From Acanthornis magna (taxonomy: Eukaryota > Chordata > Aves > Passeriformes > Acanthizidae): 64,000 nucleotides of DNA. Under the pieces are notes generated by a model. The model was not told the origin of the DNA. It saw only the letters and a program-made list of their open reading frames with translations, and did not search any database. The number at the start of each line of letters is the position of its first letter. Position 1 is the stretch's first letter. The DNA lies in the NCBI GenBank assembly GCA_036785705.1, contig JAWUZG010001067.1:26814-90813 (forward strand), given 5' to 3'. The position numbers and the translations under genes were made by a program. Shown here in pieces: positions 1-64,000 of this stretch.

Positions 1-545
1 ACCATTCCCAGTAACTCCCAGTAACTCCCAGTAACCACTGGGACCATTCCCAGTAACTCCCAGTAACCACTGGGACCATTCCCAGTAACACCAGTAACAC
101 CAGTAACCCCTGGGACCATTCCCAGTAACTCCCAGTAACACCAGTGATCCCCCAGTTCCCCTCCCAGTCCATCCCAGTCCCTCCCAGTTTAATCTAAATG
201 CCCTCCCAGTCCCTCCCAATCCCCTCCCAGTCCCTCCCAGTTTAATCCCAATCCTCTCCCAGTCCCTCCCATTCTAATCCAAATCCCCTTCCAGTCCCTT
301 CCAGTACAAACCAGTAACCCCAGTTACCCTCCCAGTCCCTCCCAGTTTAATCCCAGTCCCTCCCAGTATAAACCAGTCCCCCCCAATCCCCTCCCAGTCC
401 CTCCCAGTTCAATCCCAGTCTCTCCCAATCCCCTCCCAGTCCCTCCCAGTAACCCCAGTTCCCCCCCCAATCCCCTCCCAGTCCCTCTCAGTCGCTCCCA
501 GTAACCCCAGTTCCCCTCCCAGTCGCTCCCAGTCGCTCCCAGTAA
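1..545 (+). repeat. CCCAGTCCCTCCCAGTAAC minisatellite
   Basis: C-rich array before the Ig6 exon, 10-base CCCAGTCCCT core with CCAGTAACC and CCAGTATAAACC variants. Reverse complement of the array after the same exon. Confidence 0.85.
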
Positions 546-560
546 CCCCAGTTTCCGCAG

Positions 561-733: not shown

Positions 734-3700
734 GTGAGACACTGGTTATACTGGGATATACTGGGAGGGACTGGGAGGGGCTGGGAGGGACTGGGAGGGG
801 CTGGGGGGAGAAAACGCGGGGGTTTTGGGGTGAAAAATGGGGATTTTTGGGGGGAAAATGGGACTGGTTTATACTGGGAGGGACTGGGTTATACTGGGAT
901 ATACTGGGAGGGACTGGGAGGGACTGGGGGGAGAAAACGCGGCGGTTTTGGGGTGAAAAATGGGGATTTTAGGGTTAAAAATGGGGGTTTTAGGGGAAAA
1001 AATGGGGATTTTTAGGGGGAAAATGGGACTGGTTTATACTGGGAGGAGACTGGGAGAGACTGGGATATACTGGGAGGGACTGGGAGGGGCAGGGAGGGGT
1101 TGGGGGGAGCAAACGCGGAGGTTTTGGGGTGAAAAATGGGAATTTTAGGGGAAAAAATGGGCATTTTTGGGGGGAAAATGGGACTGGTTTATACTGGGAG
1201 GAGACTGGGAGGGATTGGGATATACTGGGAGGGACTGGGAGGGGCTGGGGGAGAAAATGCGGAGGTTTTGGGGTGAAAAATGGGAACTTTAGGGGAAAAA
1301 ATGGGACTGGTTTATACTGGGAGGGACTGGGAGGGGATTGGGTGCAATTGGTTTATACTGGGATGAACTGGGAGGGACTGGGATATACTGGGAGGGACTG
1401 GGAGAGAAAATGCAGCGGTTTTGGGGTGAAAAATGGGGATTTTAGGAAGATAAAGGGGACTGGTTTATACTGGGAGGGACTGGGCAAGAACTGGGAGGGT
1501 GTTGGGAGGGGACTGGGTTGTACTGGGATATACTGGGAGCGACTGGGAGGGGCTGGGGGGAAAATACACGGTGGATTTTGGGCGAAAAATGGGGATTTTA
1601 AGGAAAAAATGGGACTGGTTTATACTGGGAAGGACTAGGATTGAACTGGGATGGAACTGGAACTGGGACTGAACTGGGTCAAACTGGTCCAAACTGGTCT
1701 GAACTGGTCCAAACTGGTCTGAACTGGTTCCAGACGCCCCAGTTCTCACCCCTGGCCCCTCCCCCGTGGTGGTTCCGGAAGGTTCCGAGGCCTCGCTGGG
1801 GCAAACTGGGATTGAACTGGGACTGAACTGGGATTGAACTGGGACTGAACTGGGTTATACTGGTCCAGACTGGTCTGAACTGGTCCAAACTGGGTTATAC
1901 TGGTCTGAACTGGTTCCAGACGCGCCGGTTCTCACCGCCAGCCCCTCCCCCGTGGTGGTTCCGGAAGGTTCCGAGGCCTCGCTGGGGGAAACTGGGATTG
2001 AACTGGGACTGAACTGGGTTATACTGGTCCAGACTGGTCTGAACTGGTCCAAACTGGTCTGAACTGGTTCCAGACGCGCCGGTTCTCACCGCCGGCCCCT
2101 CCCCCGTGGTGGTTCCGGAAGGTTCCAAGGCCTCGCTGGGGTTAAACTGGGATTGAACTGGGACTGAACTGGGTTATACTGGTCCAAACTGGTCCAAACT
2201 GGGTTATACTGGTCTGAACTGGTTCCAGACGCGCCGGTTCTCACCGCCGGCCCCTCCCCCGTGGTGGTTCCGGAAGGTTCCGAGGCCTCGCTGGGGGAAA
2301 CTGGGATTGAACTGGGATTGAACTGGGATTGAACTGGGTTATACTGGTCTGAACCAGTTCAAACTGGTCTGAACTGGTCTGAACTGGGTTATACTGGTTC
2401 CAGACGCGCCGGTTCTCACCGCCGGCCCCTCCCCCGTGGTGGTTCCGGAAGGTTCCGAGGCCTCGCTGGTGGTGTCGGTCCAGGCCCATCCCCCACCCGA
2501 GAGCTGCACCTGGAGCGTGCGGGGGAGGGGCATCAGCCCCGGTACTGGGAGCACTGGGAGGCACTGGGAGGGACTGGGAGGGGATTGAGAGGTCATTGGG
2601 ATGTTATTGGGATCACTGGGACAAACTGGGAGGCACTGGGAAGTCACTGGGATGGACTGGGAGGGACTGAGAGTTACTGGGATGTTACTGGGAGCTCATT
2701 GGGATGTTACTGGGATGGACTGGGAGGGAATTGGGTGGCACTGGGATGGACTGGGGAGGGATTGGGGGGGACTGGGAAGTCACTGGGAGCACTGGGATGG
2801 ACTGGGAGGGGATTGGGTGGCACTGGGATGGACTGGGAGTCACTGGGAGGTCACTGGGACAGACTGGGACGAACTGGGAGGCACTGGGATGAACTGGGAG
2901 TCACTGGGAGCACTGGACGGGAACTGGGAGGCACTGGGAGCACTACGATGTCACTGGGATGTTACTGGGATGTACTGGGAGGGTATTGGAATGAACTGGG
3001 ATGGACTGGGAACACTGGGAGGGCACTGGAGGGTTACTGGGATGGACTGGGAGTCACTGGGATGGACTGGGAGGGGATTGGGATGGACTGGGAGCACTGG
3101 GATGGACTGGGATGAAGAAACTGGAAGTCACTGGGATGTTACTGGGAGGGACTGGGACAGACTGGGAGACACTGGGATGGACTGGGACAAACTGGGAGGG
3201 AACTGGAACAGACTGGGATGGACTGGGAGCTCACTGGGATGAACTGGGAGTGTACTGGGATGTTACTGGGATGGACTGGGATGTTACTGGGAGCACTGGG
3301 ATGTTACTGGCACAGACTGGGATGCACTGGGAGGGGATTGGGAGCTCACTGGGATGAACTGGGAGTCACTGGGATGGACTGGGATTCACTGGGATGGACT
3401 GAGATTCACTGGGATGAACTGGGAGGGACTGGGATGGACTGGGAGGCACTGGGATGAACTGGGAGCTCACTGGGAGTCACTGGGATGAACTGGGATTCAC
3501 TGGGATGAACTGGGAGCTCACTGGGATGAACTGGGAGTCACTGGGATGGACTGGGAGCTCACTGGGAGTCACTGGGATGAACTGGGATTCACTGGGATGA
3601 ACTGGGAGGTCACTGGGATGAACTGAGAGTCACTGGGATGGACTGGGAGTCACTGGGAGGGACTGGGATGAACTGGGAGTCACTGGGATGGACTGGGAGG

Positions 3701-6700: not shown

Positions 6701-9700
6701 ACCCCGAAATTATCCTGAAATTATCCCGAAATTACCCCAAAATTATTCTGAAATTATCCCGAAATTACCCCGAAATCATCCCGAAATTATCCCAAAATTT
6801 ATTCTGAAATTATCCCGAAATTACCCCGAGATTACCCCAAAAATTATCCCGAAATTATCCCGAAATCATCCCGAAATTACCCCAAAATTATCCGAAATCA
6901 TCCCGAAATTACCCCGAAATTATCCTGAAATTATCCGAAATTACCCAAAATTATTCTGAAATTATCCCGAAATTACCCCGAGATTACCCCAAAATTTATC
7001 CCGAAATTACCCCGAAATTATCCCAAAAATTATTCTGAAATTATCTCGAAATTACCCTGAAATTATCGCGAAATTACCCCGAAATTACCCCGAAATTATC
7101 CCCAAATTACCCCAAAATTTATTCGGAAATTATCCCGAAATTTATTCTGAAATTACCCCAAAATTATCCCCAAATTACCCTAAAATTATCCCGAAATTAC
7201 CCCGAAATTATCCCGAAATTATTCTGAAATTATCCCAAAATTACCCAAAATTTATTCGGAAATTATCCTGAAATTACCCCGAAATTGCCTGAAAATTGTC
7301 CCGAAATTATCCCGAAATTAACCCGAAATTAACCCAAAATTACCCTGAAATTGCCCTGAAATTACCCCAAAATTGCCCCAAAATTACCACGAAATCATCC
7401 TGAAATTATCCCAAAATTTTCCTGACATTATCCTGAAATTGTCCCGGAATTACCCCAAAATTATTCCGGAATTACCCCAAATCTCTCTCAAAATCCCCCA
7501 AATCCCTCCAGGACCCCCCAAACCCTTGACCCTTGACCTCTGCCCCCCCCAGTGCCCCCCAGCATCGTGCGCGCCCCCCAAACCCTCCCCAAATCCCTCC
7601 AGGACCCCCAAAACCTCCCCAAATTCCCCCAAATCCCCCCAGGACCCCCAAAAACCTCCCAAATCCCCCCCAAATCCCTCCAAGATGCCCCAAAATCGCT
7701 CCCAAATTCCCCCCAGGACCCCCAAAATCCCCTCAGGACCCCCCTGACCCCTGCCCTGTGCCCCCCCAGCATCGTGCGCGCCCCCCAAACCCACCCCAAA
7801 TCCCCCCAGGACCCCCCAAAACCTCCCCAAATTCCCCCAAATCCCCCCCAGGACCCCCCAGATTCCTCCCCAAATGCCCCAAATCCTCCCCAAATCCCTT
7901 CCAGGACCCCCAAAATCCCCCCAGGACCCCCCCAAACCTTCACGAAATTCCCCCAGGACCCCCCAATCTCCCCAAAATCCCCCCCAGGAGCCCCAAACCC
8001 TCCCCAAATTTCCCCCAAACCTTCCAAATCCCCCAAAAATCCTTCCCATTTCCCCAAATCCCCCCCAGGACCCCCCAAATCCCCCCTGACCCCTGCCCTC
8101 TGACCCCCCCCAGTGCCCCCCAGCATCGTCCGAGGCCCCGAATCCCCCCCAGGGACCCCCAAATCCCCCCCAAATCTCCCCAAATCCCTTCCAGGACCCC
8201 CAAAATCCCCCCAGGACCCCCCAAAATCTCTTCCAAATCCTTCCCGGACCCCCCAAAATCCCCTAAATCCTCCCCAAATCCCCCCAAATCCCTCCAGGAT
8301 GCCCCCAAAAACCTCCCCAAATCCCCCAAAATCTCCCCCAATCCCCCCCAAACCCACTCAGGACCCCCAAAATCCCACCAGGACCCCCCGAATCCCCCCC
8401 AGGACCCCTCAAATCCCTTCTGGGACCCCCGAAACTCCCCCAAAATCCCCCCAGGACCCCAAAAATCCCCTCCAGGACCCCCCAAATCCTCCCAGGACCC
8501 CCCAAATCCCCCCCAAACCTCCCCAAATCCCTTCCAGGACCCCCAAAATCCCCCCAGGACCCCCCAAAAATCCCCCCAGGACCCCCCAAAATCTCTTCCA
8601 AATCCCCCCCGGACCCCCCAAATCCCCTAAATCCTCTCCAAATCCACCCCAAATCCCCCCAGGACCCCCAAAAACCTCCCCAAATCCTCCCCAAATCCTC
8701 CAAGATGCCCCAAAATCGCTCCCAAATTCCCCCCAGGACCCCCAAAATCCCCTCAGGACCCCCCTGACCCCTGCCCTGTGCCCCCCCAGTGCCCCCCAGC
8801 ATCGTGCGCGCCCCCCAAACCCTCCCCAAATCCCCCCAGGACCCCCAAAAACCTCCCCAAATTCCCCCAAATTCCCCCCAGGACCCCCAAAAACCTCCCC
8901 AAATCCGTTCCAGGACCCCCAAAATCCCCCCAGGACCCCCCAAAATCTCTTCCAAATCCCCCCCGGACCCCCCAAAATCCCCTAAATCCTCTCCAAATCC
9001 TCCCCGAAATCCCCCCAGGATGCCCCAAAAACCTCCCCAAATCCCCCCCAAAATCCCCCCCAGGACCCCCCAGATCCTCCCCAAATCCTTCCAGGACCCC
9101 CAAAATCCCCCAGGACCCCCCAAACCTTCACGAAATTCCCCCAGGACCCCCCAATCTCCCCAAAATCCCCCCCCAGGAGCCCCAAACCCTCCCCAAATTT
9201 CCCCAAACCTTCCAAATCCCCCAAAAATCCTTCCCATTTCCCAAATCCCCCCCAGGACCCCCCAAATCCCCCTGACCCCTGCCCTCTGACCCCCCCCAGT
9301 GCCCCCCAGCATCGTCCGAGCCCCGAATCCCCCCAGGGACCCCCAAATCCCCCCCAAATCTCCCCAAATCCCTTCCAGGACCCCCAAAATCCCCCCAGGA
9401 CCCCCCAAAATCTCTTCCAAATCCTTCCCGGACCCCCCAAAATCCCCTAAATCCTCCCCAAATCCCCCCCAAATCCCTCCAGGATGCCCCCAAAAACCTC
9501 CCCAAATCCCCCAAAATCTCCCCCAATCCCCCCCAAACCCACTCAGGACCCCCAAAATCCCACCAGGACCCCCGAATCCCCCCCAGGACCCCTCAAATCC
9601 CTTCTGGGACCCCCGAAACTCCCCCAAAATCCCCCCAGGACCCCAAAAATCCCTCCAGGACCCCCCAAATCCTCCCAGGACCCCCCAAATCCCCCCCAAA

Positions 9701-12700
9701 CCTCCCCAAATCCCTTCCAGGACCCCCAAAATCCCCCCAGGACCCCCCAAAATCCCCCCAGGACCCCCCAAAATCTCTTCCAAATCCCCCCCGGACCCCC
9801 CAAATCCCCTAAATCCTCTCCAAATCCACCCCAAATCCCCCCAGGACCCCCAAAAACCTCCCCAAATCCTCCCCAAATCCCTCCAAGATGCCCCAAAATC
9901 GCTCCCAAATTCCCCCCAGGACCCCCAAAATCCCTCAGGACCCCCCTGACCCCTGCCCTGTGCCCCCCCCAGTGCCCCCCAGCATCGTGCGCGCCCCCCA
10001 AACCCTCCCCAAATCCCCCCAGGACCCCCAAAAACCTCCCCAAATTCCCCCAAATTCCCCCCAGGACCCCCAAAAACCTCCCCAAATCCGTTCCAGGACC
10101 CCAAAATCCCCCCAGGACCCCCCAAAATCTCTTCCAAATCCCCCCGGACCCCCCCAAAATCCCCTAAATCCTCTCCAAATCCTCCCCGAATCCCCCCAGG
10201 ATGCCCCAAAAACCTCCCCAATCCCCCCAAAATCCCCCCCAGGACCCCCCAGATCCTCCCCAAATCCCTTCCAGGACCCCCAAAATCCCCCCAGGACCCC
10301 CCAAACCTTCACGAAATTCCCCCAGGACCCCCCAATCTCCCCAAAATCTCCCCCCAGGAGCCCCAAACCCTCCCCAAATTTCCCCCAAACCTTCCAAATC
10401 CCCCAAAAATCCTCCCATTTCCCCAAATCCCCCCCAGGACCCCCAAATCCCCCCTGACCCCTGCCCTCTGACCCCCCCCAGTGCCCCCCAGCATCATCCG
10501 AGGCCCCGAATCCCCCCCAGGGACCCCCAAATCCCCCCCAAATCTCCCCAAATCCCTTCCAGGACCCCCAAAATCCCCCCAGGACCCCCCAAAATCTCTT
10601 CCAAATCCTCCCCGGACCCCCCAAAATCCCCTAAATCCTCCCCAAATCCCCCCCAAATCCCTCCAGGATGCCCCAAAAACCTCCCCAAATCCCCCAAAAT
10701 CTCCCCCAATCCCCCCCAAACCCACTCAGGACCCCCAAAATCCCACCAGGACCCCCCGAATCCCCCCCAGGACCCCTCAAATCCCTTCTGGGACCCCCGA
10801 AACTCCCCCAAAATCCCCCAGGACCCCAAAAATCCCCTCCAGGACCCCCCAAATCCTCCCCAGGACCCCCCAAATCCCCCCAAACCTCCCCAAATCCCTT
10901 CCAGGACCCCAAAATCCCCCCAGGACCCCCAAAATCCCCCCAGGACCCCCCAAAATCTCTTCCAAATCCCCCCCGGACCCCCCCAAATCCCCTAAATCCT
11001 CTCCAAATCCACCCCAAATCCCCCCAGGACCCCCAAAAACCTCCCCAAATCCTCCCCAAATCCCTCCAAGATGCCCCAAAATCGCTCCCAAATTCCCCCC
11101 AGGACCCCCAAAATCCCCTCAGGACCCCCCTGACCCCTGCCCTGTGCCCCCCCAGTGCCCCCCAGCATCGTGCGCGCCCCCCAAACCCTCCCCAAATCCC
11201 CCCAGGACCCCCAAAAACCTCCCCAAATCCTTTCCAGGACCCCCAAAATCCCCCCAGGACCCCCCAAATTCTCTTCCAAATTCTCCCCGGACCCCCCAAA
11301 TCCCCTAAATCCTCCCCAAATCCCCTAAATCCTCCCCAAATCCCCCCAAATCCCTCCAGGATGCCCCCAAAAACCTCCCCAAATCCCCCCCAAATTCCCC
11401 TAGGACCTCCCCAATCCCCCCAAATCCCTTCCAGGACCCCCAAAATCCCCCCAGGACCCCCCAAATCCCCCTCAAGACCCCCCTGACCTTTGACCTTTGA
11501 CCCCCCCAGTGCCCCCCAGCATCGTGCGCGCCCCCGACCCTGTGGTGGTGGACGAGGGGGGGGAGGGGCAGCTGCAGTGCGAGGCCGAGGGGAGCCCCCT
11601 CCCCCCAGGGAGCCTGCGCTGGGGGCGCCTGGTGAGGGGCGGGGGTCCCGGGGGGGTTTGGGGGGTCCTGGGGGATTTGGGGGTCCTGGGGGGGTCCTGA
11701 GGGGGTTTTTGGGGGTCCTGGGGGGATTTGGGGGTCCTGGGGGGGTCCTGAGGGGGTTTTTGGGGGGTCCTGGGGGGGTTTGGGGGGTCCTGGGGGGGAT
11801 TTGGGGGGGTCCTGGGGGTGATCTGGGGAGGTTTTTGGGGGATTTGGGGGGATTTGGGGGGTCCGGGGGGGATTTGGGGGTCCTGGGGGGGTCCTGAGGG
11901 GGTTTTTGGGGGGTCCTGGGGGGGTTTGGGGGGGCCTGGGGGGGATTTTGGGGGGTCCTGGGGGGGTTTGGGGGGTCCTGGGGGGGATTTGGTGGGTCCC
12001 GGGGGGATTTGGTGGGTCCTGGGGGGGTCCTGGGGGGGCCTGGGGGGTCCTGGGGGGATTTGGGGGTCCTGGGGGGGGTCCTGAGGGGGTTTTGGGGGGT
12101 CCTGGGGGGGTTTGGGGGGGCCTGAGGGGGTTTTTGGGGGGTCCTGGGGGGTTTGGGGGGTCCTGGGGGGGATTTGGGGGGTCCCGGGGGGATTTGGTGG
12201 GTCCTGGGGGGGTCCTGGGGGGGCCTGGGGGGTCCTGGGGGGATTTGGGGGTCCTGGGGGGGTCCTGAGGGGGTTTTTGGGGGGTCCTGGGGGGATTTGG
12301 GGGTCCTGGGGGGTCCTGAGGGGGTTTTTGGGGGTCCTGGGGGGGTTTGGGGGTCCTGGGGGGGATTTGGGGGGTCCTGGGGGGTCCTGGGGGGGATTTG
12401 GGGGGGCCTGGGGGGGATTTTGGGGGGGTTCCTGGGGGGATTTTGGGGAGTCCCGGGGGGATTTGGGGGGTTCTGGGGGTTCCTGGGGGGGATTTGGGGG
12501 GGCCTGGGGGTGATCTGGGGCGGTTTTTGGGGGGATTTGGGGGGATTTGGGGGGTCCTGGAACGGATTTGGGGGGTCCTGAGGGGGGGATTTGGGGGGGT
12601 CCCGGGGGAGTCCCGGGGGGGTTTGGGGGGTCCTGGGGGTGATCTGGGGAGGTTTTTGGGGGGATTTGGGGGGATTTGGGGGGTCCGGGGGGGATTTGGG

Positions 12701-15700
12701 GGTCCTGGGGGGGGTCCTGAGGGGTTTTTTGGGGGGTCCTGGGGGATTTGGGGGGTCGTGGAAGGGATTTGGGGGGTCCTGGGGGGGTCCTGGGGGGAAT
12801 TTGGGGGGTCCTGGGGGGATTTGGGGGGATTTGGGGAGGTTTTTGGGGGGATTTGGGGGGTCCTGGGAGGGTCCTGAGGGGGTTTTTGGGGGGTCCTGGG
12901 GGGGTTTGGGGGGGTCCCCGGGGGATTTGGTGGGTCCTGGGGGGGTCCTGGGGGGGCCTGGGGGGATTTGGGGGGTCCTGGAACGGATTGGGGGGTCCCG
13001 GGGGGGTTTGGGGGGTCCTGGGGGTGATCTGGGGAGGTTTTTGGGGGGGGTCCTGGGGGGGTCCTAGGGGGGTCCTGAGGGGATTTGGGGGGTCCTGGGG
13101 GGGTCCTGGGGGGATTTGGGGGGGCCTGGGGGGGTCCTGGGGGGATTTGGGGGTCCTGGGGGTTTGGGGGAAAATTGAGGGGATTTGGAGTGGGTTGGGG
13201 AGGTTTTTGGGGGGTCCTGGGGGGATTTGGGGCTCCTGGGGGAGTCCTGAGGGGGTTCAGGGGTCCTGGGGGGGGTTTGGGGGGTCCTGGGGAGAATTTG
13301 GGGGGGATTTAGGGGAGATTTGGGGAGGGTTTGGGGGGATTTGGGGGGTCCTGGGAGGATTGGGGGGGATTTGAGGGGAATATTTTGTGCATATTTTCGG
13401 GGCTATTTTTGGGTTGATTCCGGGCTATTTTCAGGCTATTTTTGGGCTATTTTTGGGCTAATTCCGGGCTATTTTCGGGCTAATTCCAGGCTATTTTCGG
13501 GCTAATTCCGGGCTATTTTCGGGCTAATTTCGGGCTATTTTCGGGCTAATTCCGGGCTATTTTCGGGCTATTTTCGGGCTAATTCCGGGCTATTTTCGGG
13601 CTAATTTCGGGCTATTTTCGGGCTAATTTCGGGCTATTTTTGGGGCGATTCCAGGCTATTTTTGGGTTGATTTCAGGATATTTTCGGGCTAATTCCGGGC
13701 TATTTTGGGGGCGATTCCGGGCTATTCTTTGGTTGTTATCGGGCTAATTTCGGGCTATTTTTGGGTTGATATCGGGCTAATTTCAGGCTATTTTCGGGGC
13801 TATTCCGGGCTAATTCCGAGCTATTTTTGGGTTGATTCCGGGCTATTTTCGGGGCTATTTTCGGGGATATTCCGGGCTAATTCCGGGCTATTTTCGGGCT
13901 AATTCCGGGCTATTTTTGGGCTGATTTTGGGCTAATTCCAGGCGATTTTTGGTTGATTCCGGGCTATTTTCGGGTCGATTCCGGGCTAATCCCGGGCTAT
14001 TTTTGGGTTGATTTCGGGCTAATCCCGGGCTAATTCCGGGCTATTTTCGGGTCGATTCCGGGCTAATCCCGGGCTGATTTCAGACTCATTCCGGCCGTCC
14101 CCGTCCCCTCCCCGCAGGGTGACTCGGGCTCGGCGCTGGCGCTGCCCCCGGAGCTGCTCCCGGGGGGTCCGGGGCTGTTTTGGGATAGTTTGGGATAATT
14201 TCGGGATATTCTGGGATATTTTGGGGATATTTAGCGCATATTCTGGGACATTTTGGGGTAATTTCGGGATATTTTGGTGAATATTTTTGGGAATATTTCG
14301 GGATAACTTTGGGATATTTTCCACATATTTTTGGGGCGACTTCGGAATAATTTCAGGATATTTCAGTGCATATTTACGGAGCTATTTCCGGATAATTTGG
14401 GGCTATGTTTGGGGATATTTCGGGCTATTTTCGGGCTGATTCCGGGCTATTTTCGGACTAATTTAGGGCTATTTTCGGGCTATTTTCGGGCTATTTTCGG
14501 GCTGATTCCGGGCTATTTTTGGGTTGATTCCGGGCCATTTCCGGGCTAATTCCGGGCTATTTTCGGGCTAATTCCGGGCTATTTCCGGGCTGATTCCGGA
14601 CTATTTTCGGGCTAATTTCGGGCTATTTTCGGGGCTATTTTCGGGGCTATTCCGGGCTAATTCCGAGCTATTTTTGGGTTTATTCCGGGCTATTTTCGGG
14701 GCTATTTCAGGCTATTTTTGGGTTGATTTTGGGCTACTTCGGCTATTTTTGGGTTGATTCGGGCTATTTTCAGGCTATTTTCAGGCTATTTTTGGCTATT
14801 TTCGGCTAATTCCGGGCTAATTTCGGGCTAATTCCGGGCTGATTTCGGGCTATTTTTGGGGGTGATTCCGGGCTATTTCGGACTAATTTCGGGCTATTTT
14901 CAGGCTAATTTGGGGCTAATTTCGGGCTATTTTTGGGCTGATTCCGGGCTATTTTTGGGCTGATTTTGGGCTAATCCCGGGCTATTTTTGGGTTGATTTC
15001 GGGCTAATCCCGGCTAATTCCGGGCTATTTTCGGGTCGATTCCGGGCTAATCCCGGGCTGATTTCAGACTCATTCCGGCTCTCCCCGTCCCCTCCCCGCA
15101 GGGTGACTCGGGCTCGGCGCTGGCGCTGCCCCCGGAGCTGCTCCCGGGGGGTCCCGGGGGGGCCCTGCAGCTCCGGGGGGCGCGGAGGGACCTGGGGGGG
15201 CCCTACGAGTGCAGCGTGGACTCGGGGGTGCCGCCCCCCGCCCGCGCCATCGTCAGGCTCATCGTCAGATGTGAGAGGGGCGGGGCTTAACCGGGAGGGG
15301 CGGGGCTTAACCGGGAGGGGCGGGGCTTACCGGAGTGGGCGGGGGTTAATGGGAAAAGGGGCGGGGCTTAATGGGAAAGGGGCGGGGCTAACGGGAAAAG
15401 GGCGGGGCTAAAGGGGGAGGGGCTAATGGGGTGCCGCCCCCGCCCGCGCCATCGTCAGGCTCATCGTCAGATGTGAGAGGGGCGGGGCTTAACTGGAGTG
15501 GGCGGGGTTAATGGGAAAAGGGGCGTGGGCTTAATGGGAAAGGGGCGGGGTTAATGGGAAAAGTGAGGGGCTAAAGGGGGAGGGGGTCAATGGGGTGCCG
15601 CCCCCCGCCCGCGCCATCGTCAGGCTCATCGTCAGATGTGAGAGGGGGCGGGCTAAGGAAAAGGGGCGGGGCTAATGGGAAAGGGGCGGGGCTAATGGGA

Positions 15701-21271: not shown

Positions 21272-21305
21272 GGGGGAGGGGCCTCGGACACAAGCCACGC
21301 CCACA

Positions 21306-21985: not shown

Positions 21986-21995
21986 CCAATCGGGG

Positions 21996-50572: not shown

Positions 50573-50574
50573 GG

Positions 50575-52620: not shown

Positions 52621-52639
52621 CAGGAGAGGCCGAGGGGCG

Positions 52640-53155: not shown

Positions 53156-56100
53156 GTGCGGAACTGGGAGCACTGGGACAGACTGGGAGCGACTGGGAGG
53201 GGATTGGGAGCGACTGGGGGAGACTAGGAGCGGAACTGGGGAGACTGGGACAGACTGGGAGAGGACTGGGAGGGGATTGGGGGAGACTGGGAGGGAACTG
53301 GGAGCGACTGGGACGGACTGGGAGAGGATTGGATGCGGAACTGGGAGCATTGGGAGCGAGTGGGAGAGACTGGGAGGGGCTTGGGAGGGACTGGGAGCGA
53401 ACTGGGAGAGGACTGGGAGAGGACTGGGAGGGGATTGTTTGTGGAACTGGGAGCGACTGGGGGAGACTGGGAGGGGATTGGGAGGGACTGGGAGCGACTG
53501 GGACGGACTGGGAGCGGATTAGGGGAAACTGGGAGTGACTGGGAGGGGATTGGGTGTGGAACTGGGAGCACTGGGAGGGACTGGGAGGGGATTGAGAGGC
53601 ACTGGGAGAGACTGGGAGACGAGTGGGAGTGACTGGGACAAACTGGGAGTGACTGGGAGAGGATTGGGAGGAACTGTGAGGGAACTGGAAGAAACTGGGA
53701 GGGGATTGAGTGCGGAACTGGGAGCACTGGGAGGGACTGGGACGGACTGAGAGAGGAGTGGGGGAGACTGGGAGGGGATTGGGAGGGACTGGGACAAACT
53801 GGGAGGCACTGGGAGAGGATTAGGGGGAACTGGGAGGGTCTGGGAGGAAACTGGGAGGGACTGGGAGAGGATTGGGGGGGACTGGGTACGGAACTGGGGA
53901 GACTGGGAGGGAACTGGGAGGAGATTGGGAGAGACTGGGAGGGCCTGAGACAAACTGGGAGCGACTGGGAGGGACTGGGACAAACTGGGAGGGACTGGGA
54001 GCGGATTAGAGGAAACTGGGAGAGACTGGGAGAGGATTGGGAGGGGCTGGGTACAGAACTGGGGAGACTGGGAGGGACTGGGTGTGGAACTGGTGGCCCT
54101 GGGAGCACTGGGAGAGACTGGGAAGGACTGGGAGGGGATTGGGGGAGACTGGGAGCGACTGGGAGCAACTGGGAGGGGATTGTATGTGGAACTGGGAGCA
54201 CTGGGAGAGACTGGGAAGGACTGGGAGGGGACTGGGACAAACTGGGAGGGACTGGGACAAACTGGGAGCGGATTAGGGGAAACTGGGAGCACTGGGAGAG
54301 ACTGGGAGGGCATTGGGGATGGGACTGGGGGAAATATTTAAAAATTTCCTGAAAATTTTTAATTTTGTTCCCAAAATTCTCAATTTCTCTCCCAAAAAAC
54401 CTAGAATTGTTTTAAAAAATTTCCTAAAATTTTTGATTTTGCTCTCAAAATTCAAAATTTCCTTCCCAAAACTCCCTTTTTTTTTTTTAAATTTCCCAAA
54501 ATTTTCAATTTTTCTCCTGAAATTCTCAGTTTCTCTCCCCAAAACTTGGAATTTTTTTTGGGAAATTTCCAAAAATTTCCAATCTCGCCCCCAAAATTCT
54601 TCTGAAGTTGTCGATTTTGCTGCCAAAACCCCGAATTTTTTACCAAAATTTCCCCAAAATTTCTAATTGTGCTCTCAAAATTCTTTATTTTCCTCCCAAA
54701 ACCCAATTTTTTTTTTTGTTTAATTTCTCCAAAATTCCCAATTTTTCTCCCAAAACCCCAAATTTTTTCCCAAAACGTCCCAAAATTCCCAATTTCGTTC
54801 CCAAAAACCCGAATTTTTTACCAAATTTCCCCAAATTCCCAATTTTTCTCCCCAAAAACTCAAATTTTTTGGGGGGAAATTTCCCAAAACCCCCGAATCT
54901 TTTCCAAAATTCCCAATTTCCCTCCCAAAAACCCCAAATTTTTATCGATTTTCCCCCAAAATTTTCATTTTTCGGCAGTTTTTCTCCATTTTCGCCTTCG
55001 CCACCTGCGGAGGTTTCGAGGGCTCTGTCACCTTCAGGGTCACCTGTCCAGGTGAGAACGTCTCGGTCAGCGCCGCCTTCGGATACCCCTTCAGGTGAGC
55101 CCGGGAGACCCCGTGGGGGCTGGGTGTGACCCCCAGGTGTGTCCAGGTGTGTCCCCAGGTGTGTTTGGGTGTGGCCCCAGGTGTGTCCAGGTGTGTTTGG
55201 GACCCCCCAGGTGTGCTCAGGTGTGTCCCAGGTGTGTTTGGGATCCCTTCAGGTGAGCCCGGGAGACCCCACGGGGACAGGTGGGACCCCCCAGGTGTGT
55301 CCCCAGGTGTGTTTGGGATCCTCAGGTGTGTTTGGGACCCTTCAGGTGAGCCCAGGAGACCCCGCGGGGCTTGGGTGGGACCCCCCAGGTGTGTTTGAGA
55401 CCCCCCAGGTGTGTTTGGGTGTGGCCCCAGGTGTGGCCAGGTGTGTTTGGGACCCCCCAAGTGACCCCAGGTGTGTCCAGGTGTGCTCAGATGTGTCCCC
55501 AGGTGTGCTTGGGATGCCCCAGGTGACCTCAGGTGTGTCCAGGTGTGTTTGGGATCCCTTCAGGTGAACCTGGGAGACCCCGTGGAGCTTGGGCGGGACC
55601 ACCCAGGTGTGTTTGAGACCCCCCAGGTGTGTTTGGGTGTGGCCCCAAGTGTATCCAGGTGTGTCCCAGGTGTGTTTGGGACCCCTTCAGGTGAGCCTGG
55701 GAGACCCCACGGGGACAGGTGGGACCCCCCAGGTGTGTTTGGGACCCCCCAGGTGTGTTTGGGTGTGGTCCCAGGTGTCCCCAGGTGTGTTTGGGATGCC
55801 CCAGCTGACCCCAGCTGTGTCCAGGTGTGTCCCAGGTGTGTTTGGGACCCCCCAGGTGACCCCAGGTGTGTCCAGGTGTGCTCAGGTGTGTCCCCAGGTG
55901 TGTTTGGGATGCCCCAGGTGTGTTTGGGATGCCCCAGGTGGCCCCAGGTGTGTCCAGGTGTGTCCCAGGTGTGTTTGGGACCCCTTCAGGTGAGCCCGGG
56001 AGACCCCGCGGGGATAGGTGGGACCCCCCAGGTGTGTTTGGGTGTGGCCCCAGGTGTGTCTAGGTGTGGTTGGGTGTGGTCTCAGGTGGGTTCAGGTGTT

Positions 56101-59100
56101 CCCCAGGTGTGTTTAGGATCCCTTCAGGTGAGCCTGGGAGACCCCGCGGGGGGTGGGTGGGACCCCCCAGGTGACCCCAGGTGTGTTTGAGACCCTCAGG
56201 TGTGTCCCCAGGTGTGTTTGGGACCCCCCAGGTGTGCTCAGGTGCGTCCAGGTGTGTTTGGGACCGCTTCAGGTGAGCCTGGGAGACCCCTCGGGGACAG
56301 GTGGGACCCCCCAGGTGTGTCCAGGTGTGTTTGAGACCCCCCAGGTGTGTTTGGGTGTGGCCCCAGGTATGTCCAGGTGTGTTTGGGACCCCCCAGGTGT
56401 GCTCAGGTGTGTCCCAGGTGTGTTTGGGATCCCTTCAGGTGAGCCTGGGAGACCCCTCGGGGACAGGTGGGACCCCCCAGGTGTGTCCCAGGTGTGTTTG
56501 GGACCCCCCAGGTGTGCTCAGGTGCGTCCAGGTGTGTTTGGGACCGCTTCAGGTGAGCCCAGGAGACCCCATGGGCGGTTGGGTGGGACCCCCCAGGTGT
56601 GTTAGGGACTGTCCAGGTGTGTTCAGGTGTGTTTGGGTGTGGTCCCAGGTGTGTCCAGGTAGGTGTTATGTGGCCCTCAGGTGTGTTTGGGACACCTCAG
56701 GTGCGCCCAGGTGTGTTCGGGTGTGTCCCCAGGTGTATTTGGGACCTCTTCAGGTGAGCCCAGGAGACCCTGCGGGGACAGGTGGGACCCCCCAGGTGTG
56801 TTTGGGTGTGGCCCCAGGTATGTCCAGGTGTGTTTGGGACCCCCAGGTGTGCTCAGGTGTGTCCCAGGTGTGTTTGGGATCCCTTCAGGTGAGCCCGGGA
56901 GACCCCGCGGGGCTTGGGTGGGACCCCCCCGGTGCATTTGAGACCCCCCAGGTGTGTTTGGGTGTGGCTCCAGGTGTGTTTGGGTGTGGCCCCAGGTATG
57001 TCCAGGTGTGTTTGAGACTCCCCAGGTGACCCCAGGTGTGCCCAGGTGTGTTTTGGACACCCCAGGTGTGTGCTCAGGTGTGTCCCAGGTGTGTTCCCAG
57101 GTGTGTTTGAGACCCCCCCCAGGTGTGCTCAGGTGTGTCCCCGGGTCTGTCCAGGTGTGCCCAGGTGTGTCCCACGTGTGGCCAGGTTGTTTGGGATCTC
57201 TCAGGTGCATCAAGGTGTGCCCAGGTGTGTCTCCAGTTGTGTTTAGGCTTCTTCAGGTGTGCCCAGGTGTGTCCCTAGGTGTGGTTGGAACCCCCCAGGT
57301 GTGCCCAGGTGTGCTCAGGTGTCTCCCCTCCCCCCAGGTTGAACCAGGTGGTGTTCCAGCCCTCCCTGACTCACCTGTGTAACCACAGCTGGCTGCAGGT
57401 GTGCCTCAGGTGTGCCCAGGTGTGCTCAGGTGTGTCCCTAGGTGAGCCTTAGGTATCCCCAGGTGTCCCAGAAGTGTTTCCAGGTGCGTTTGGGCCTCCT
57501 CAGGTGTGTCCCCAGGTGTGTCCAGGTGTGTTCAGATATGTCCAGGTGAGCCCAGGTGTGTCCCCAGGTGTGTTTGCGACTTTTCAGGTGTGTCCCTAGA
57601 TGATCCTAGGCGTGCCCCAGCTGTGTCCAGGTGTGTCTGGAATTCCCCAGGTGTGTTTGGGACTTCTCAGGTGTGCCCAGGTGTGTCTGGAACTCCTCAG
57701 GTTACTCCAGGTGTGTCTGGAACTCCTCAGGTTACTCCAGGTGTGCCCAGGTGTGCTCAGGGCCTCCCACAGTGTCTCCAGGTGTGTGTTAGGTGTCCTC
57801 AGGTGTCCCCAGGTGTGTTCAGGTGCGTCCCTACGTGTGCCCCAGCTGTGTCTGGACCGTCCCCAGGTGTGTTTGGGACCTCCCAGGTAACCCCAGGTGT
57901 CTCCCCCCCCAGGTTGAACCAGGCGGTGTTCCAGCCCTCGCTGACTCACCTGTGTAACCACACCTGGCCCCAGGTGTGTGCAGGGCCTCCCTAAGTGTCC
58001 CCAGGTGTGTTTGGAGCCCCTCAGGTGTGCTCAGGTGTGTCCCCAGGTGTGTTTAGGTTCTCTCAGGTGTGACCTCAGGTGTGTCGAGGTCTGTCCAGGT
58101 GTGTCTTACCTGTGATCAGCTGTGTGGTGGTGACCCGAAGTGTGTTTGGTCCCCCCCAGGTCTGCCCAGGTGTGCTCAGGTGTGTCCCCAGGTGTGCCCC
58201 AGGTGTATTTGAGACTCCCCAGGTAACCCCAGGTGTGTTTCCAGGTGTGCCCAGGTGTGCTCAGGTGTGTTTTATCCCCCCAGGTTGAACCAGGCGGTGT
58301 TCCGGCCCTCGCTGACTCACCTGTGTAACCACACCTGGCCGCAGGACGTGCACCTGGTCGGGGACTTCGCCTCGGCCGCGCGATTCTTCGTGGCTGTGGC
58401 CGTGGCTGCTTTCCTCTACAGCCTGGGGGCCCTGGGCGCCTACCTGGGCTACCTGCACCTGTACAGGTGCGCCGGCTCACGGCTGCCGCTCATGGTGAGT
58501 GCCTCAGGTGTACTCAGGTGTGCTCGGGGGGAGGCTACCTGGGCTACCTGCACCTGTACAGGTGTGCAGGGTCACGGCTGCCGCTCATGGTGAGTGCCTC
58601 AGGTGGGATTTACCTGTTCAGGGTGGGGCTACCTGGGCTACCTGCATCTGTACAGGTGCGCCGGGTCACGGCTGCCACTCATGGTGAGTGCCTCAGGTGG
58701 GATTTACCTATTCAGGTGTGCTTGGGTGGGGCTACCTGGGCTACCTGCACCTGTACAGGTGTGCCGGGTCCCGGCTGCCACTCATGGTGAGTGCCTCAGG
58801 TGGGATTTACCTGTTCAGGGTGGGGCTACCTGGGCTACCTGCACCTGTACAGGTGTGCTGGGTCACGGCTGCCGCTCATGGTGAGTGCCTCAGGTGTGCT
58901 CAGGTGTGCTCGGGGTGGGGCCCTGGGGCTACCTGGGCTACCTGCACCTGTACAGGTGTGCAGGGTCACGGCTGCCGCTCATGGTGAGTGCCTCAGGTGG
59001 GATTTACCTGTTCAGGGTGGGGCTCTGGGGCTACCAGCACCTGTGCAGGTGTGCTGGGTCACGGCTGCCGCTCATGGTGAGTGCCTCAGGTGTGCTCAAG

Positions 59101-62100
59101 TGAGATTTAGCTGCTCAGGTATGCCCAGGTGTGGTTAGGTGAAGTTTGAGAGCTTGGCCAGGTGGGATTTATTTATCCAAGTGTACTCAGGTGAGTTCAA
59201 ATAGGTGTGGTTTAGTTGAGCAGATGTGCTCAGGTAGGGTTTGATTGTACAGGTGTGCTCAGGTGTGCTCAGGGTGGGGCTACCTGGGCTAGCTTCACCT
59301 GTACAGGTGCGCAGGGTCACACCTTCCGCTCATGGTGAGTGCCTCAGGTGTGCTCAGGTGGGATTTACCTGCCTAGGTGAGCTCAAGTGTGCTCAGGGTG
59401 GGGCCCTGGGCAGTTACCTGGGCTACCTGCACCTGTACAGGTGTGCCGGGTCCCAGCTGCCGCTCATGGTGAGTGCCTCAGGTGGGATTTACCTGTTCAG
59501 GTGTGTTTGGGTGGGGCTACCTGGGCTACCTGCACCTGTACAGGTGTGCAGGGTCACAGCTGCCACTCATGGTGAGTGCCTCAGGTGGGATTTACCTGTT
59601 CAGGGTGGGGCTCTGGGGCTACCTGCACCTGTGCAGGTGTGCCGGGTCCCGGCTGCCGCTCATGGTGAGTGCCTCAGGTGGGGTTTACCTGTTCAGGGTG
59701 GGGCTACCTGGGCTACCTGCACCTGTACAGGTGTGCTGGGTCACGGCTGCCGCTCATGGTGAGTGCCTCAGGTGTGCTCAGGTGTGCTCGGGGGGAGGCT
59801 ACCTGGGCTACCTGCATCTGTACAGGTGTGCCGGGTCACGGCTGCTGCTCATGGTGAGTGCCTCAGGTGTGCTCAGGTGTGCTCAAGTGGGATTTGAAAG
59901 CTCACCCAGGTGAGCCCAGGTGTGCTCACGGTGGGGCTCTGGGGCTACCTGGGCTACCTGCACCTGTACAGGTGTGCTGGGTCCCGGCTGTCGCTCATGG
60001 TGAGTGCCTCAGGTGGGATTTACCTGTCCAGGTGTGTTTGGGTGGGGCTTCCTGGGCTACCTGCATTTGTCCAGGTGTGCTGGGTCTCGGCTGCCACTCA
60101 TGGTAAGTGCCTCAGGTGGGATTTACCTGTTCAGGGTGGGGCCCTGGGGCTACCTGGGCTACCTGCGCCTGTACAGGTGTGCTGGGTTACAGCTGCCGCT
60201 CATGGTGAGTGCCTCAGGTGGGGTTTACCTGTTTAGGGTGGGGCTACCTGGGCTACCTGCACCTGTACAGGTGTGCCGGCTCACGCCTCCCCCTCATGGT
60301 GAGTGCCTCAGGTGGGATTTACCTGTCCAGGTGTGTTTGGGTGGGGCTACCTGGGCTACCTGCACCTGTACAGGTGTGCAGGGTCACGGCTGCCGCTCAT
60401 GGTGAGTGCCTCAGGTGGGATTTACCTGTCCAGGTGTGCTTGGGTGGGGCTACCTGGGCTACCTGCACCTGTACAGGTGTGCCGGGTCACGGCTGCCGCT
60501 CATGGTGAGTGCCTCAGGTGGGATTTACCTGCTCTGATATGCTCAGGTGGGGTTTGAGAACTTGCTCAGGTGTGCCCAGGTGAGCTCAGGTGGGGTCTGA
60601 GAGCTTGACCAGGTGAGAGTTACCTGTCCAGGTGAGCTCAGGTGTGTCCAGGTAAGCTCAGGTGGGGTCTGAGACCTTCACTAAATGAGATTTACCTGTC
60701 CAGGTGAGCTCAGGTGTTCTTCACTTGTGCAGGTGTCCCTTTTTGCTTTTTTCTTGGCTTTATTTTTGGGGTTTTCAATGAAATTTTTGCGTTCTCGAGG
60801 GAATTTTCGGCTTTGCGATTGAATTTTTGGGGTTTGCAATGGAATTTTGGGATTTCCTGGTGAAATTTTGACGTTCCCAATGAAATTTTTTAGGATCCTC
60901 GTAGAATTTTTGGGTAATTTTTGGAGTTCTTAATGAGATTTTTACATTCCGAATAGAATTTCTGGGGTTTCCGACAGAAATTTTGGGGTTTCCGGTGGAA
61001 TTTTGGGGTTTTTTCTGGAATTTTTTGGGGTTCTCAATGAGATTTTTGTGTTCCAAGTAGAATTTTTGGGGTTTCCAACAGAAATTTTGGGGTTTCCGGT
61101 GGAATTTTTGGGGTTCCTGATGGAATTTTTGGGATTTGCGATGGATTTTTTGGGGTTTCCGATGGAATTTTGGGGATCTTTGTGGAATTTTTGGGTAAGT
61201 TTTGGAGTTCTCAATGAGATTTTTACGTTCCGAATACAATTTCTGGGGTTTCCAACAGAAATTTTGGGGTTTCCGGTGGAATTTTTGGAGTTCTTGATGG
61301 AATTTTTTGGGTTTCCGATGGATTTTTGGGTGTTTCTGATGGAGTTTTTGGGGTTCCTGATGGAATTTTTGGGGTTTCTGGTGGAATTTTGGGGTTTTCA
61401 AAGAAAATTTTGGTGTTTCCTATGAAATTTTTGGGGTTTCTAATTGAATTTTTGGGGTTCCTGACGAAATTTTGGGGTTTTTGACAGAATATTTGGGGGT
61501 TGTGGTGGAAATTTTGGGATTTCCAACAGAATTTTTGGAATTTTTGGTGAAATTTTTGGAGTTCCCTATAGAATTTTTGGAGTTCCCAATAGAATTTTTG
61601 GAGTTCCTGATGGAATTTTTGGTATCCTAGTAAAACATTTGAAACCCAGGTGGAATTTTTGGGGCTTTTAAGGCAAATTTTGGAATCAAATTGGGAATTT
61701 TTATGGTTTTTGATAGAACTTTTAGGGTTTTTTGGGTGAAATTTGAAGGTTTTCGGTCAAATTTTGCGGTTCCCGATGGAAATTTTGGGGTTCCCAGTGC
61801 AAATTTTGGGGTTCCCGGTGGAATTTTTCGGTCCCTGGGTGGAATTTTCGGATTCTCGGGGGAATTTTGGGAATTCCCACGGAAATTTTGGGTCTGGGGG
61901 GAGGAATTTTGGGGCTCCCCATGGGAATTTTGGGAGGGGGAGGTTTTTAACTCTTTCCGTTCCTTTTCTCTCTCTGCTGCCCTGGAAGGACCCTGGGTAA
62001 GTCCCGCCCCTTTTTTTGGGAGGCCACGCCCCTTTTTTGGGGGTGCCACACCCCCAAAATTCCCATTTTCCCCCCAAATTCCCAATTTTCTCCTTCAAAA

Positions 62101-64000
62101 TTCTCAATTTCCCCCAAAAATTCCAATTTTCCATCCAAAATTTCCATTTTTCCTCCAAAATTCCCTTTCTTTTTCCAATAAATTCCCTTTTCCCCCCAAA
62201 TTCCCATTCTTCCCCCCAAAAAATTCCCATTTCCTCCCCGAAATTCCCATTTCCCCCAAAAATTCCCAATTTCCTCCCCAAAACCCCCCCTAAAAACTTT
62301 ATTCTTCTCCCCAATTTTGAGTTCTAGTCCCTCTCTCTTTTGGGGTCATTTCTCCCCAAATTTTGGGCCATTTTTCTCAATTTTTGGGCTATTTTTCCCC
62401 ATTTTTTTTGGGGCTATTTTCCCTTTTTTGGGGGGCCTTTCTCTCCACTTTTTGGGCAATTTTTTCTTCTATTTTGGGGATTTTTTTTCTATTTTTGGGC
62501 CGTTTTTTCCATTTTTGGGTTATTTCTTCCCCATTTATTTTTTTATTATTTTTTCCTATTTTTTTCCTATTCATCCCAATTTTTGGGCTATCTCTCGTTT
62601 CTTTTTTTGGCCATTCTGGCCTTTTTTTCCTATTTCTTCCCATTTTTTGGAGCCATAATTTCCCCATTTTTTTCCCCGTTTTTTTGGGCTCTTTTCCCCT
62701 ATTTTTTTTCCATTTTTCCCCACTTTTTTTTTGGGTCATTTCTGCCCATTCTTTTTTCCTATTTCTCACCATATTTTCCCATTTTTGTTTGTTCTTTTTA
62801 CTTTTTTTGCCTATTTTTTCTGCTTTTCTCCCCATTTCCCACCCCTCCCCCATTTCCCACCCCTCCCCCATTCTTAATTCCTCTCTCCCCTCCCCCATCC
62901 CCTGGTGGCCTCAGGGCTCGTGGCCCCTCCCCCATTTTGGGGCCATTTTCCCCCATTTTTTCCCCGTTTCTTAAGGTATTGCTGTCCATTTTTTGGACCA
63001 TTTTTTCCTTTTTTTTTTTGCCATTTCTCCCCATTTTTTTTCTTATTTCTCCCTATTTTTTCCCCCGTATTTCCCCTTTTTTTTTCCACTCTTTTCCCAT
63101 TTTTTTTTCTTATTTTTTTCCATTTTTTGGGTTATTTCTCTCCATTTTTTCACCTTTTCCTGCTATTTTTTTCTCATTTCTTCCCATTTTTTCTCTTTTT
63201 TCCCCGATTTTTCCCAATTTTCTCCCCAATTTCTCTCCATTTCTCCCCATTTCCCACCCCTCCCCCATTTCCCACCCCTCCCCCACTCTTAATTCCTCTC
63301 TCCCCTCCCCCATCCCCTGGTGGCCTCGGGGCTCATGACCCCTCCCCCGTTTTGGGGCCATTTCTCCCCAATTTTTTCCCATTTTCCCCATTTTTCACCA
63401 ATTTTTTCCCAATTTCTCCCCAATTTTTGCCCAATTTTCCCCATTTCTCCCCAAATTTCACCCTTCCCCCACTCTTAATTCCATCTCCCCTCCCCCATCC
63501 CCTGGTGGCCTCGGGGCTCGTGGCCCCTCCCCCATTTTGGGGCCATTTCTCCCATTTTTTCCCATTTTCCCCATTTTTCACCAATTTTTTCCCATTTTTT
63601 CCCCATTTCTCCCCAAATTTCACCTTTCCCCTCTCTAACTCTCCCCTCCCCCAGGACCTGGTGGCCTCGGGACTCGTGGCACCTCCCCCGTTTTGGGGTC
63701 ATTTCTCTCCAATTTTTTCCCATTTTCCCCATTTTTCACCAATTTTTCCCCATTTTTTCCCATTTATTTCCATATTTTAGGCGATTTTTCCCCAATTTTC
63801 CCCATTTCTCCCCAAATTTCACCTTTCCCCCCTCTAATCTCATCTCCCCTCCCCATCCCCTGGTGGTCTCAGGACTCGTGGCCGCGCTGTGGCTCCTGCC
63901 CCTCCCCCACTTTGGGGCCATTTTTCTCCTAATTTTTTCCCATTTTCCCCATTTTTCACCAATTTTTCCCCATTTTTTCCCATTTATTTCCATATTTTAG
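53087..64000 (+). CDS. SYPL1: Synaptophysin-family protein, SYPL1-like, 5' part
   Basis: Four-pass MARVEL-domain vesicle protein. Exons seen: 53087-53155, 54979-55094, 58284-58494, all in phase; the fourth exon begins at or beyond the right edge. N-terminus MAAPRVSLGPLKEPLGLIRA then LQW, FFSIFAFATCGGFEGSVTF, RVTCPGENVSVSAAFGYPFR, HLVGDFASAARFFVAVAVAA, FLYSLGALGAYLGYLHLY. The KEPLG, IFAFATCGGF, FGYPFRL and VGD motifs are those of the family. From memory the closest member is SYPL1 (pantophysin); SYP, SYNPR and SYPL2 fit less well at GGF and LNPLKEPLG positions, but paralogue choice is not certain. Two N-glycosylation sequons (NVS, NHT) and cysteines lie in the first luminal loop. The second membrane segment is in exon 3. 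Confidence 0.8.
53160..54330 (+). repeat. ACTGGGAGGG minisatellite, SYPL1-like intron 1
   Basis: 10-base unit, directly after the donor, with GGATTGGG and GGAACTGGGAGC variants. Confidence 0.87.
54330..54965 (+). repeat. TTCCCAAAATTTCCAATTTT A/T-rich array
   Basis: Pyrimidine-rich 3' half of intron 1 with CCAAAATT and CCCAATTT units of irregular length. Confidence 0.75.
54979..55094 (+). CDS. SYPL1: SYPL1-like exon 2
   Basis: Acceptor ttcggcag, donor gtgagc. Encodes the end of membrane segment 1 and the first luminal loop to FGYPF. Two bases left for arginine. Confidence 0.88.
55095..58283 (+). repeat. CAGGTGTG array with exon 2 end copies and two exon 3 start copies
   Basis: CCCAGGTGTGTTTGGGACC units. 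About eleven copies of CCCTTCAG/GTGAGCC with GGGAGACCCC (for example near 55253, 55345, 55563, 55692, 55990, 56128, 56272, 56439, 56553, 56752, 56889). Exon 3 start copies at 57338 and 57913. Confidence 0.83.
58284..58494 (+). CDS. SYPL1: SYPL1-like exon 3
   Basis: Acceptor ccccccag, donor gtgagt. Reads LNQAVFRPSLTHLCNHTWPQ, DVHLVGDFASAARFFVAVAV, through the second membrane segment to GSRLPLM. The two earlier 61-base partial copies (57338, 57913) lack everything after TWPQ. Confidence 0.88.
58495..60720 (+). repeat. Array with about 18 copies of exon 3 end and donor
   Basis: About 95-145 base units holding CTACCTGGGCTACCTGCACC, TGTACAGGTG and GGCTGCCGCTCATG then gtgagtgcctcagg. Copies run from about 58534 to 60500; fading repeats with CAGGTGAGCTCAGGTG to 60720. 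Confidence 0.85.
60740..61700 (+). repeat. GGAATTTTTGGGGTTTCCGAT array
   Basis: About 27-30 base unit in SYPL1-like intron 3, with a duplicated block of about 240 bases (60895-61130 and 61188-61400). Confidence 0.85.
61705..64000 (+). repeat. CCCCATTTTTCCC pyrimidine-rich array
   Basis: 61705-61960 is GGAATTTTGGGG-like; 62040-62330 is AAATTCCCATTTTCCCCC; 62340-64000 is CCATTTTTTCCCC with truncated exon 4 start copies every 150-400 bases. Confidence 0.8.
63654..63683 (+). pseudogene. Partial copy of SYPL1-like exon 4 start
   Basis: Acceptor cccccag then GACCTGGTGGCCTCGGGACT, read DLVASGLVA; family members have DFVVTLVA here. The match stops after about 27 bases. Similar truncated copies at about 62902, 63317, 63502 and 63860; the last extends to AALWLL. 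The full exon must lie right of the window. Confidence 0.6.

Follow-up and report, generated by a model that had tools for sequence, protein, structure and literature searches.

The window analysed here, a 64,000-base stretch of DNA from the passerine bird Acanthornis magna (contig JAWUZG010001067.1, positions 26,814 to 90,813), carries copies of exon edges inside the adjacent introns of predicted NPHS1, RBM42, CTU1 and SYPL genes. The copies probably arose by exon stuttering through undirected local tandem duplication, with selection deciding what remained. On this reading, repeats do not prefer splice sites; instead, splice sites and reading frames determine which repeats survive. Of the new points the most useful is this view of selection as a filter, together with its coding side, seen in arrays inside the predicted CTU1 coding exons whose lags are multiples of three.

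Arrays called by Tandem Repeats Finder (TRF) made up 82% of the window. Exons were read from the islands between the arrays, and 50 exon edges were placed by visual inspection of reading frame and splice signals. Most placed edges agreed in phase; NPHS1 exons h to k and a TYROBP-like gene were less secure. The edge counts exclude the 5' edges of NPHS1 exons h and i, the last NPHS1 exon, the first CTU1 border, the middle and last TYROBP exon edges, and SYPL exon 4.

Exon edges copied into adjacent introns

Each edge was represented by a query of 60 exon and 30 intron bases, and same-strand matches in the adjacent intron were counted. This gave ten strong families of edge copies and one short family (the 3' edge of SYPL exon 2) among the 50 edges; the other 39 edges had no such copy in the adjacent intron. 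The copies and their sources were placed as follows.

1704..2403 (+): four upstream copies of the NPHS1 2404 5' edge, junctions at 1734, 1920, 2074 and 2229, spacing 154-186 bp
2404..2541 (+): NPHS1 exon 'a', an Ig domain (Pfam Ig_3) and the source of these copies, with a phase-checked join
7553..11509 (+): seven copies of the NPHS1 11510 5' edge in the intron array, spacing 508-678 bp
About 7760 (+): an eighth match to the NPHS1 11510 5' edge, acceptor altered
11510..11631 (+): NPHS1 exon 'c', with a phase-checked join
14118..14174 (+): a single match to the NPHS1 15102 5' edge (exon part)
15102..15270 (+): NPHS1 exon 'd', from exon model and matches, copied outward from both edges
15271..15970 (+): four copies of the NPHS1 15270 3' edge and donor, junctions at about 15473, 15637, 15817 and 15950
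22923..23116 (-): RBM42 exon 9, an RRM (Pfam RRM_1) in which the frame shifts by one base
23117..24963 (-): ten copies of the RBM42 exon 9 acceptor and 5' edge (23116), spacing 171-180 bp
27276..29683 (-): sixteen copies of the RBM42 exon 6 3' edge and donor (29684), spacing 124-178 bp
33402..33991 (-): two copies of the RBM42 exon 2 3' edge (source 35228), junctions at about 33562 and 33961
41807..44940 (+): fifteen copies of the CTU1 41806 3' edge (the last 54 or so exon bp and the donor), spacing 176-250 bp
55094..56905 (+): the SYPL exon 2 donor (55094) and 11 further copies by match, about 10 exon bp each
57338..58283 (+): two matches to the SYPL exon 3 acceptor and 5' edge (58284)
58495..60524 (+): eighteen copies of the SYPL exon 3 3' edge (58494) and donor, spacing 93-258 bp

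The E-values of the matches in the ten families ran from 4e-12 to 6e-33, and that of the eighth NPHS1 11510 copy was 6e-6. The CTU1 total consists of 11 copies among the matches listed and four read separately from the sequence. Weaker local matches (64-74% identity, for example at NPHS1 561, 17990 and 20778), which could be old copies or array noise, were left uncounted. The copied exon part was mostly about 25-75 bp long, and about 60-70 bp in the NPHS1 2404 copies where measured.

An earlier interpretation of this DNA, the sequence-only reading, had listed 12 copied edges with 1 to about 18 extra copies each. Eleven of the edges were recovered where it had placed them (ten strong, one short), and the copy numbers, 1-18 per family (4, 7, 1, 4, 2, 16, 10, 15, 2 and 18 in the strong families), bore out its range. 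For the twelfth, SYPL exon 4, the source lies beyond the contig end. At 62888-63883 five acceptor-like edge copies are followed by a possible start of this exon, and its source is out of view because the contig stops at the window end.

In strong families with more than one copy the spacing was at least 93 bp, as expected if the unit has to cover exon, border and intron together. The copies varied among themselves and most spacings were irregular, which argues against assembly stutter.

The copy profile was then read across the junctions with 24-mers, for which a local copy required 20 of 24 bases to match, and with 40-mers (32 of 40 matching, at least 60 bp away). The fraction of edges for which a local 24-mer copy existed was 0.52-0.78 in the intron at 24 to 150 bp from the junction, fell to 0.22-0.26 at the junction itself, and to 0.04-0.13 at 54-66 bp inside the exon. 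The 40-mers gave the same order: 835 of 1018 were copied in introns, 10 of 50 when centred on a junction, and 4 of 50 when placed 50 bp inside the exon. Of 156 taken from exon interiors outside CTU1, six had copies, and each of these six lay in the end of a captured exon. The window profile had no copy peak at the junction; copying faded across the border. This ran against the earlier view that array growth favours junctions.

The 26.8 kb upstream on the same contig, with seven further placeable NPHS1-like exons, served as a hold-out. There, 216 of 245 intron 40-mers were copied and 2 of 14 at junctions. Many low-scoring matches of the u2 3' and u7 5' edges were treated as array noise, and single matches of the u1 5', u2 5' and u6 5' edges lay on other exons of the same gene. 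Two captured NPHS1 edges stood at upstream contig positions 19058 and 25391, an acceptor with 14 short copies and a donor with six. Many of the acceptor copies were only about 53 bp apart, unlike the strong families of the window.

We interpreted these results as follows. Short, GC-rich ancestral introns would have expanded in place through repeated local tandem duplication, by slippage or unequal exchange, with endpoints that fall anywhere and do not seek splice junctions. When one end of a segment lands a few dozen bases inside an exon, the exon edge would be copied. A contiguous tandem duplication that reaches the exon from the intron must cross the border, and so its copy carries the splice site. 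The edge copy would lie on the intron side and leave the working junction unharmed. It would be tolerated, probably since exon definition passes over an incomplete exon that has a single splice site. A duplication would be removed if it took in both splice sites of an intron or shifted the frame. Where a coding exon can bear duplication, only steps of three bases would survive, as the predicted coding exons of CTU1 show on a large scale.

The base composition of the introns bears on their supposed short ancestry. The first quarter was G-richer than the last in all 22 introns examined, one of which (18770-19252) has an uncertain end. Among introns of at least 400 bp the polarity held in 19/20 with 60 bp trimmed from each end, and in 18/20 with 150 bp trimmed. 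Unexpanded introns of 81 and 86 bp had the same polarity. That expanded and unexpanded introns share it fits an order-keeping, in-place expansion of short ancestral introns. Over half-introns, the donor-side versus acceptor-side skew was borderline (P = 0.043). The pattern 'G left, C right' was identical on both strands, so gene and chromosome orientation are inseparable, and one of three intergenic stretches had the reverse polarity. The median unit of 120 non-redundant arrays was 22.5 bp, with units of at least 90 bp in 25. An NPHS1 exon also contained 9-bp coding motifs, TCCGCCCAG and GGACTGGGA (QSAQSAQS and DWEDWEDWE; 17792..17902, +), with 10-bp versions in the flanking introns.

Arrays within the predicted CTU1 coding exons

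About 4.4 kb of in-frame arrays lay within predicted coding exons of CTU1, in three places.

40448..41446 (+): a 21-bp unit repeated 48 times in frame, encoding an ISPQNPG-like heptapeptide, placed after the N-terminal zinc finger and ahead of the PP-loop
46611..49089 (+): in-frame arrays in a variable loop of predicted exon 3, in open frame with lags of 3n
49515..50463 (+): an in-frame array in the predicted C-terminal extension, in open frame with lags of 3n; the stop of the open reading frame (ORF) ends at 50572

The predicted spliced frame was free of stops over 1,842 residues. The sequence-only reading had held that repeat units as rich in exon interiors as in edges would count against it. 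Such interiors were indeed found in part, as these large CTU1 arrays.

In the CTU1 coding arrays the best self-match lag was a multiple of three at 231 of 232 positions; the 21 noncoding stretches of array that we chose for comparison gave 690 of 2143. Lag positions overlap and are hence non-independent, and the pattern was present in all four coding blocks tested. Three further lag settings gave 289/291, 277/278 and 276/276 in coding against 940/2898, 829/2573 and 748/2399 in noncoding arrays. Counted as distinct lags under the first of these, multiples of three made up 45/46 in coding and 77/228 in noncoding arrays. The pattern ended at the acceptor of CTU1 exon 3 (21/81 in the array upstream) and at the stop codon (16/46 in the array downstream). 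Over the whole window, 15 of the 17 non-redundant arrays located within coding exons had 3n units (5 of 6 without CTU1), as did 37 of 102 elsewhere, in a comparison that omits five TRF rows (four non-redundant) straddling coding and noncoding sequence.

We consider it likely that stuttering also occurs inside the coding exons of dot-chromosome genes, where only steps of three pass the filter, and that it keeps adding long and probably disordered insertions to housekeeping proteins. If so, the product of the only CTU1 gene found in the assembly would quite likely reach about 1,840 residues, and two of its loops and its tail would hold the arrays.

It is unlikely that the frame is open by chance, in arrays that are really introns with unusual splice sites or in a gene that is dying. 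The support for this alternative comes from the long chance ORFs common in the window, from a splice-like signal in the middle array, and from database records: the search for long relatives of CTU1 (about 1013-3223 aa) gave 11 matches, none named as vertebrate. In the other length range searched, about 167-530 aa, the nine avian CTU1 records read had 297-455 residues, some partial. Against the alternative stand the near-complete restriction of the best lags to 3n and its end at the stop. The stretch 40440-41461 held 5 GT and 6 AG, with no GTRAG and no pyrimidine-rich AG site, and the CTU1 domain had a single match in the assembly, at this locus. Relatives also argue against it. A short seven-residue repeat occupies the same loop in CTU1 of the cuckoo (Cuculus canorus), and the night parrot (Pezoporus wallicus) CTU1 has a long repetitive C-terminal tail. 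This suggests recurrent coding expansion at these CTU1 sites in birds.

Several results count against coding stuttering. The middle array has splice-like signals, with 65 GT, 100 AG and one GTRAG (pyrimidine-rich AG sites were zero). Single indel sizes modulo 3 failed to separate coding from noncoding arrays (5/25 vs 54/562, P = 0.095) in a test restricted to arrays scoring at least 200 with at least 74% matches. Divergence by codon position in the CTU1 arrays showed no consistent third-position excess, and amino-acid constraint there is therefore weak or absent. Long open frames arise by chance in these arrays, so that openness alone proves nothing. Finally, the contig is probably an avian dot chromosome, an assignment made from its content only.

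The predicted protein of a Strix occidentalis CTU1 record seems to run past the donor after WIATG into a repeat array, which resembles a gene-prediction error at a stuttering intron. More generally, gene prediction may let exons stop at decoy donors or excise coding arrays. The copy profile across junctions and the repeat lag modulo 3 across exons provide a quick test for any dot-chromosome gene, and the lag modulo 3 tells coding repeats from noncoding ones without RNA. Should the CTU1 arrays be translated, 3n lags would be a read-out of translation in raw genomic sequence. Repeat instability on dot chromosomes would then remodel proteins directly, which bears on the reported fast protein evolution and gene loss.

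Decoy splice sites, junction seeding and assembly

Copies of the ten strong families were re-aligned with fixed ends. The GT or AG was kept in 75 of 79 aligned copies, or 75 of 80 with the altered eighth NPHS1 copy. The sequence-only reading had stated that the copies always carry the splice site. They do carry the border, by geometry; 'always' was too strong, since 5 of the 80 sites were altered. Divergence from the source was found at 4 of 158 positions in the splice dinucleotides, 246 of 3716 in exon columns and 91 of 1106 in the intron flank. The decoys seem nearly neutral, with no sign of purging and no demonstrable conservation, and we infer that splicing ignores them through exon definition, each partial copy having one splice site only.

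That the decoys were retained for usefulness, for example in slowed splicing or regulated isoforms, as had also been proposed, seems highly improbable. The intact GT or AG in most copies would fit such a role, as would the lower divergence of the dinucleotides (2.5%, against 6.6% in exon columns). The difference was not significant, however: random pairs of adjacent columns were as low in 22% of draws (P = 0.22). The copies are also non-independent and look homogenised in places, where variant patterns recur among the copies of RBM42 exon 6 and of CTU1.

Growth seeded at the junctions themselves, with CAGGTG or the GT/AG context as preferred breakpoints, is a highly improbable explanation. In its favour are the 11 of 50 edges copied, with up to 18 copies each, and the GTG start of all five strongly captured donors and of SYPL exon 2; but 14 of the 21 other donors also start with GTG. 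CAG/G (the slash marks the border) was found at 1/5 strongly captured donors and 2/22 others, no clear excess for the CAGGTG-like seeding once suggested. Captured acceptors were not richer in CAG/G (2/5, against 9/18 uncaptured, counted by eye). The copy profiles of both window and hold-out fell at the border where seeding calls for a peak.

A comparison of edge capture with random breakpoints had been proposed as a check. Random tandem duplication in compact introns was simulated, with rejection only of duplications that spanned both splice sites or were wholly exonic. Capture reached 56-99% of edges, or 18-82% when edge-carrying duplications were ten times less tolerated. Random breakpoints thus predict more capture than the observed 20% unless edge copies are strongly disfavoured, and this points to avoidance or decay rather than attraction. 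The parameters were chosen by us and decay of old copies was ignored, so the simulation shows only that attraction is unneeded. Junction seeding was rejected because the copy profiles had no peak and CAG/G no clear excess.

Two points tell against undirected duplication. With decay ignored in the simulation, the under-representation of edges is possibly overstated. With SYPL exon 2 counted as captured, CAG/G donors were 2/6 against 1/21, which is suggestive and too few to decide.

The gene models bear on the quality of the assembly. Eight NPHS1 exons joined in phase into 451 residues without a stop; the CTU1 exons, like the three SYPL exons, joined in phase without an internal stop. The RBM42 join was clean apart from the one-base shift in exon 9. 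This shift lies in a G run and splits the exon into two frames, each with a match to the conserved RRM. Because the ten intronic copies of the edge have the same short run, the shift either predates the array or reflects a systematic error of sequencing. A 181-base NPHS1 probe matched this contig alone in a search of the 1.48-Gb assembly.

Pfam matches in the window (Ig domains, RRM, MARVEL, PP-loop and zinc ribbon) were consistent with the assigned kinds of gene, and PDB sequence matches were to synaptophysin for SYPL and to the NcsA/TtuA thiolases for CTU1 (CTU1/NcsA family). The five best CTU1 protein matches were all from birds. The exact names NPHS1, RBM42 and TYROBP are presumptive. The TYROBP-like gene (38779-37452, -) has a transmembrane segment and an ITAM-like (immunoreceptor tyrosine-based activation motif) sequence, SPYQELQGARGDLYSEL. 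The DAP10-family Pfam match that fits TYROBP was weak, 20.8 bits against a cut-off of 22.9.

Very little credence can be given to repeated copies as a product of misassembly or sequencing artefact in GC-rich DNA, for which speak the short contig (90,813 bp, or 90.8 kb, ending at the window end) and the shift in RBM42 exon 9, and against which stand the distinct variants and mostly irregular spacing of the copies, the frames that join across eight NPHS1 exons, the 3n lattice of CTU1 that an artefact would not respect, and the published check of the general structure of chicken PHF8 introns in raw nanopore reads (PMC12954441).

Comparison with known systems

A minisatellite reported in NAR in 1995 (23:1854) is said, by its title, to have repeat units that provide splice donors to the transcript. 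The units here likewise carry a donor; the bird copies are known from sequence alone.

Tandem duplication can also create introns. In potato RdRp a duplication across an intron-exon border carried the splice signals and made a new spliced intron (PMC4974935). That intron gain was one duplication, whereas the bird window has numerous copies and shows no sign that introns were gained.

Human internal tandem repeats offer a coding parallel. Minisatellites in coding exons encode variable amino-acid repeats, and those at boundaries affect splicing (De Grassi and Ciccarelli 2009, PMC2812944). They belong to recently duplicated primate genes and have units that average 30 bp in four copies; the account in that paper, as far as it is cited here, describes neither a chromosome-wide process nor kilobase arrays such as those of the bird.

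Closer to the present case are the GC-rich 'hidden' avian genes, with introns of tandem repeats, G-rich motifs and, in some cases, repeats within the coding sequence (BMC Genomics 2019, PMC6792250). The introns of the window are likewise built of tandem repeats. The portion of that paper used here gives no exon-edge copying or frame analysis. The corresponding portions of PMC9974502 and PMC8449477 mentioned neither edge copies nor coding arrays.

The closest system is sequence stuttering on chicken dot chromosomes (Hron et al. 2026, PMC12954441), in which exon stuttering denotes the copying of lateral exon parts with their splice sites. The sequence-only reading knew of no described class of this kind; that publication already supplies one. 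It was the only paper retrieved by a literature search for the terms sequence stuttering and exon stuttering. In chicken, exon stuttering was reported in 236 introns of 115 genes, with 190 of 5,572 dot introns affected. The source lay within 1 base of the border in more than 90% of cases, with an exon part of 20-187 bp (median 36) and 1-44 copies (median 4). Length differences between individuals are a further trait of the chicken introns. The main text of PMC12954441 does not name NPHS1, RBM42, CTU1 or TYROBP; SYPL1 was not looked for. Among the papers listed in a thin literature search there was no report of coding or in-frame arrays on dot chromosomes.

The edge copies of the window belong to this known exon stuttering, and the 3n coding arrays of CTU1 are the part that we have not found described. 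As in chicken, a lateral exon part with its donor or acceptor is spread as a direct repeat through the adjacent intron, here in 1-18 copies, the copies reach the border with the splice site (GT or AG in 75/79), and the introns are rich in tandem repeats. Chicken stuttering blocks, according to the text cited, were never observed to cross into exons, and coding regions were intact. Unlike these, the bird arrays of CTU1 stand in frame inside predicted coding exons.

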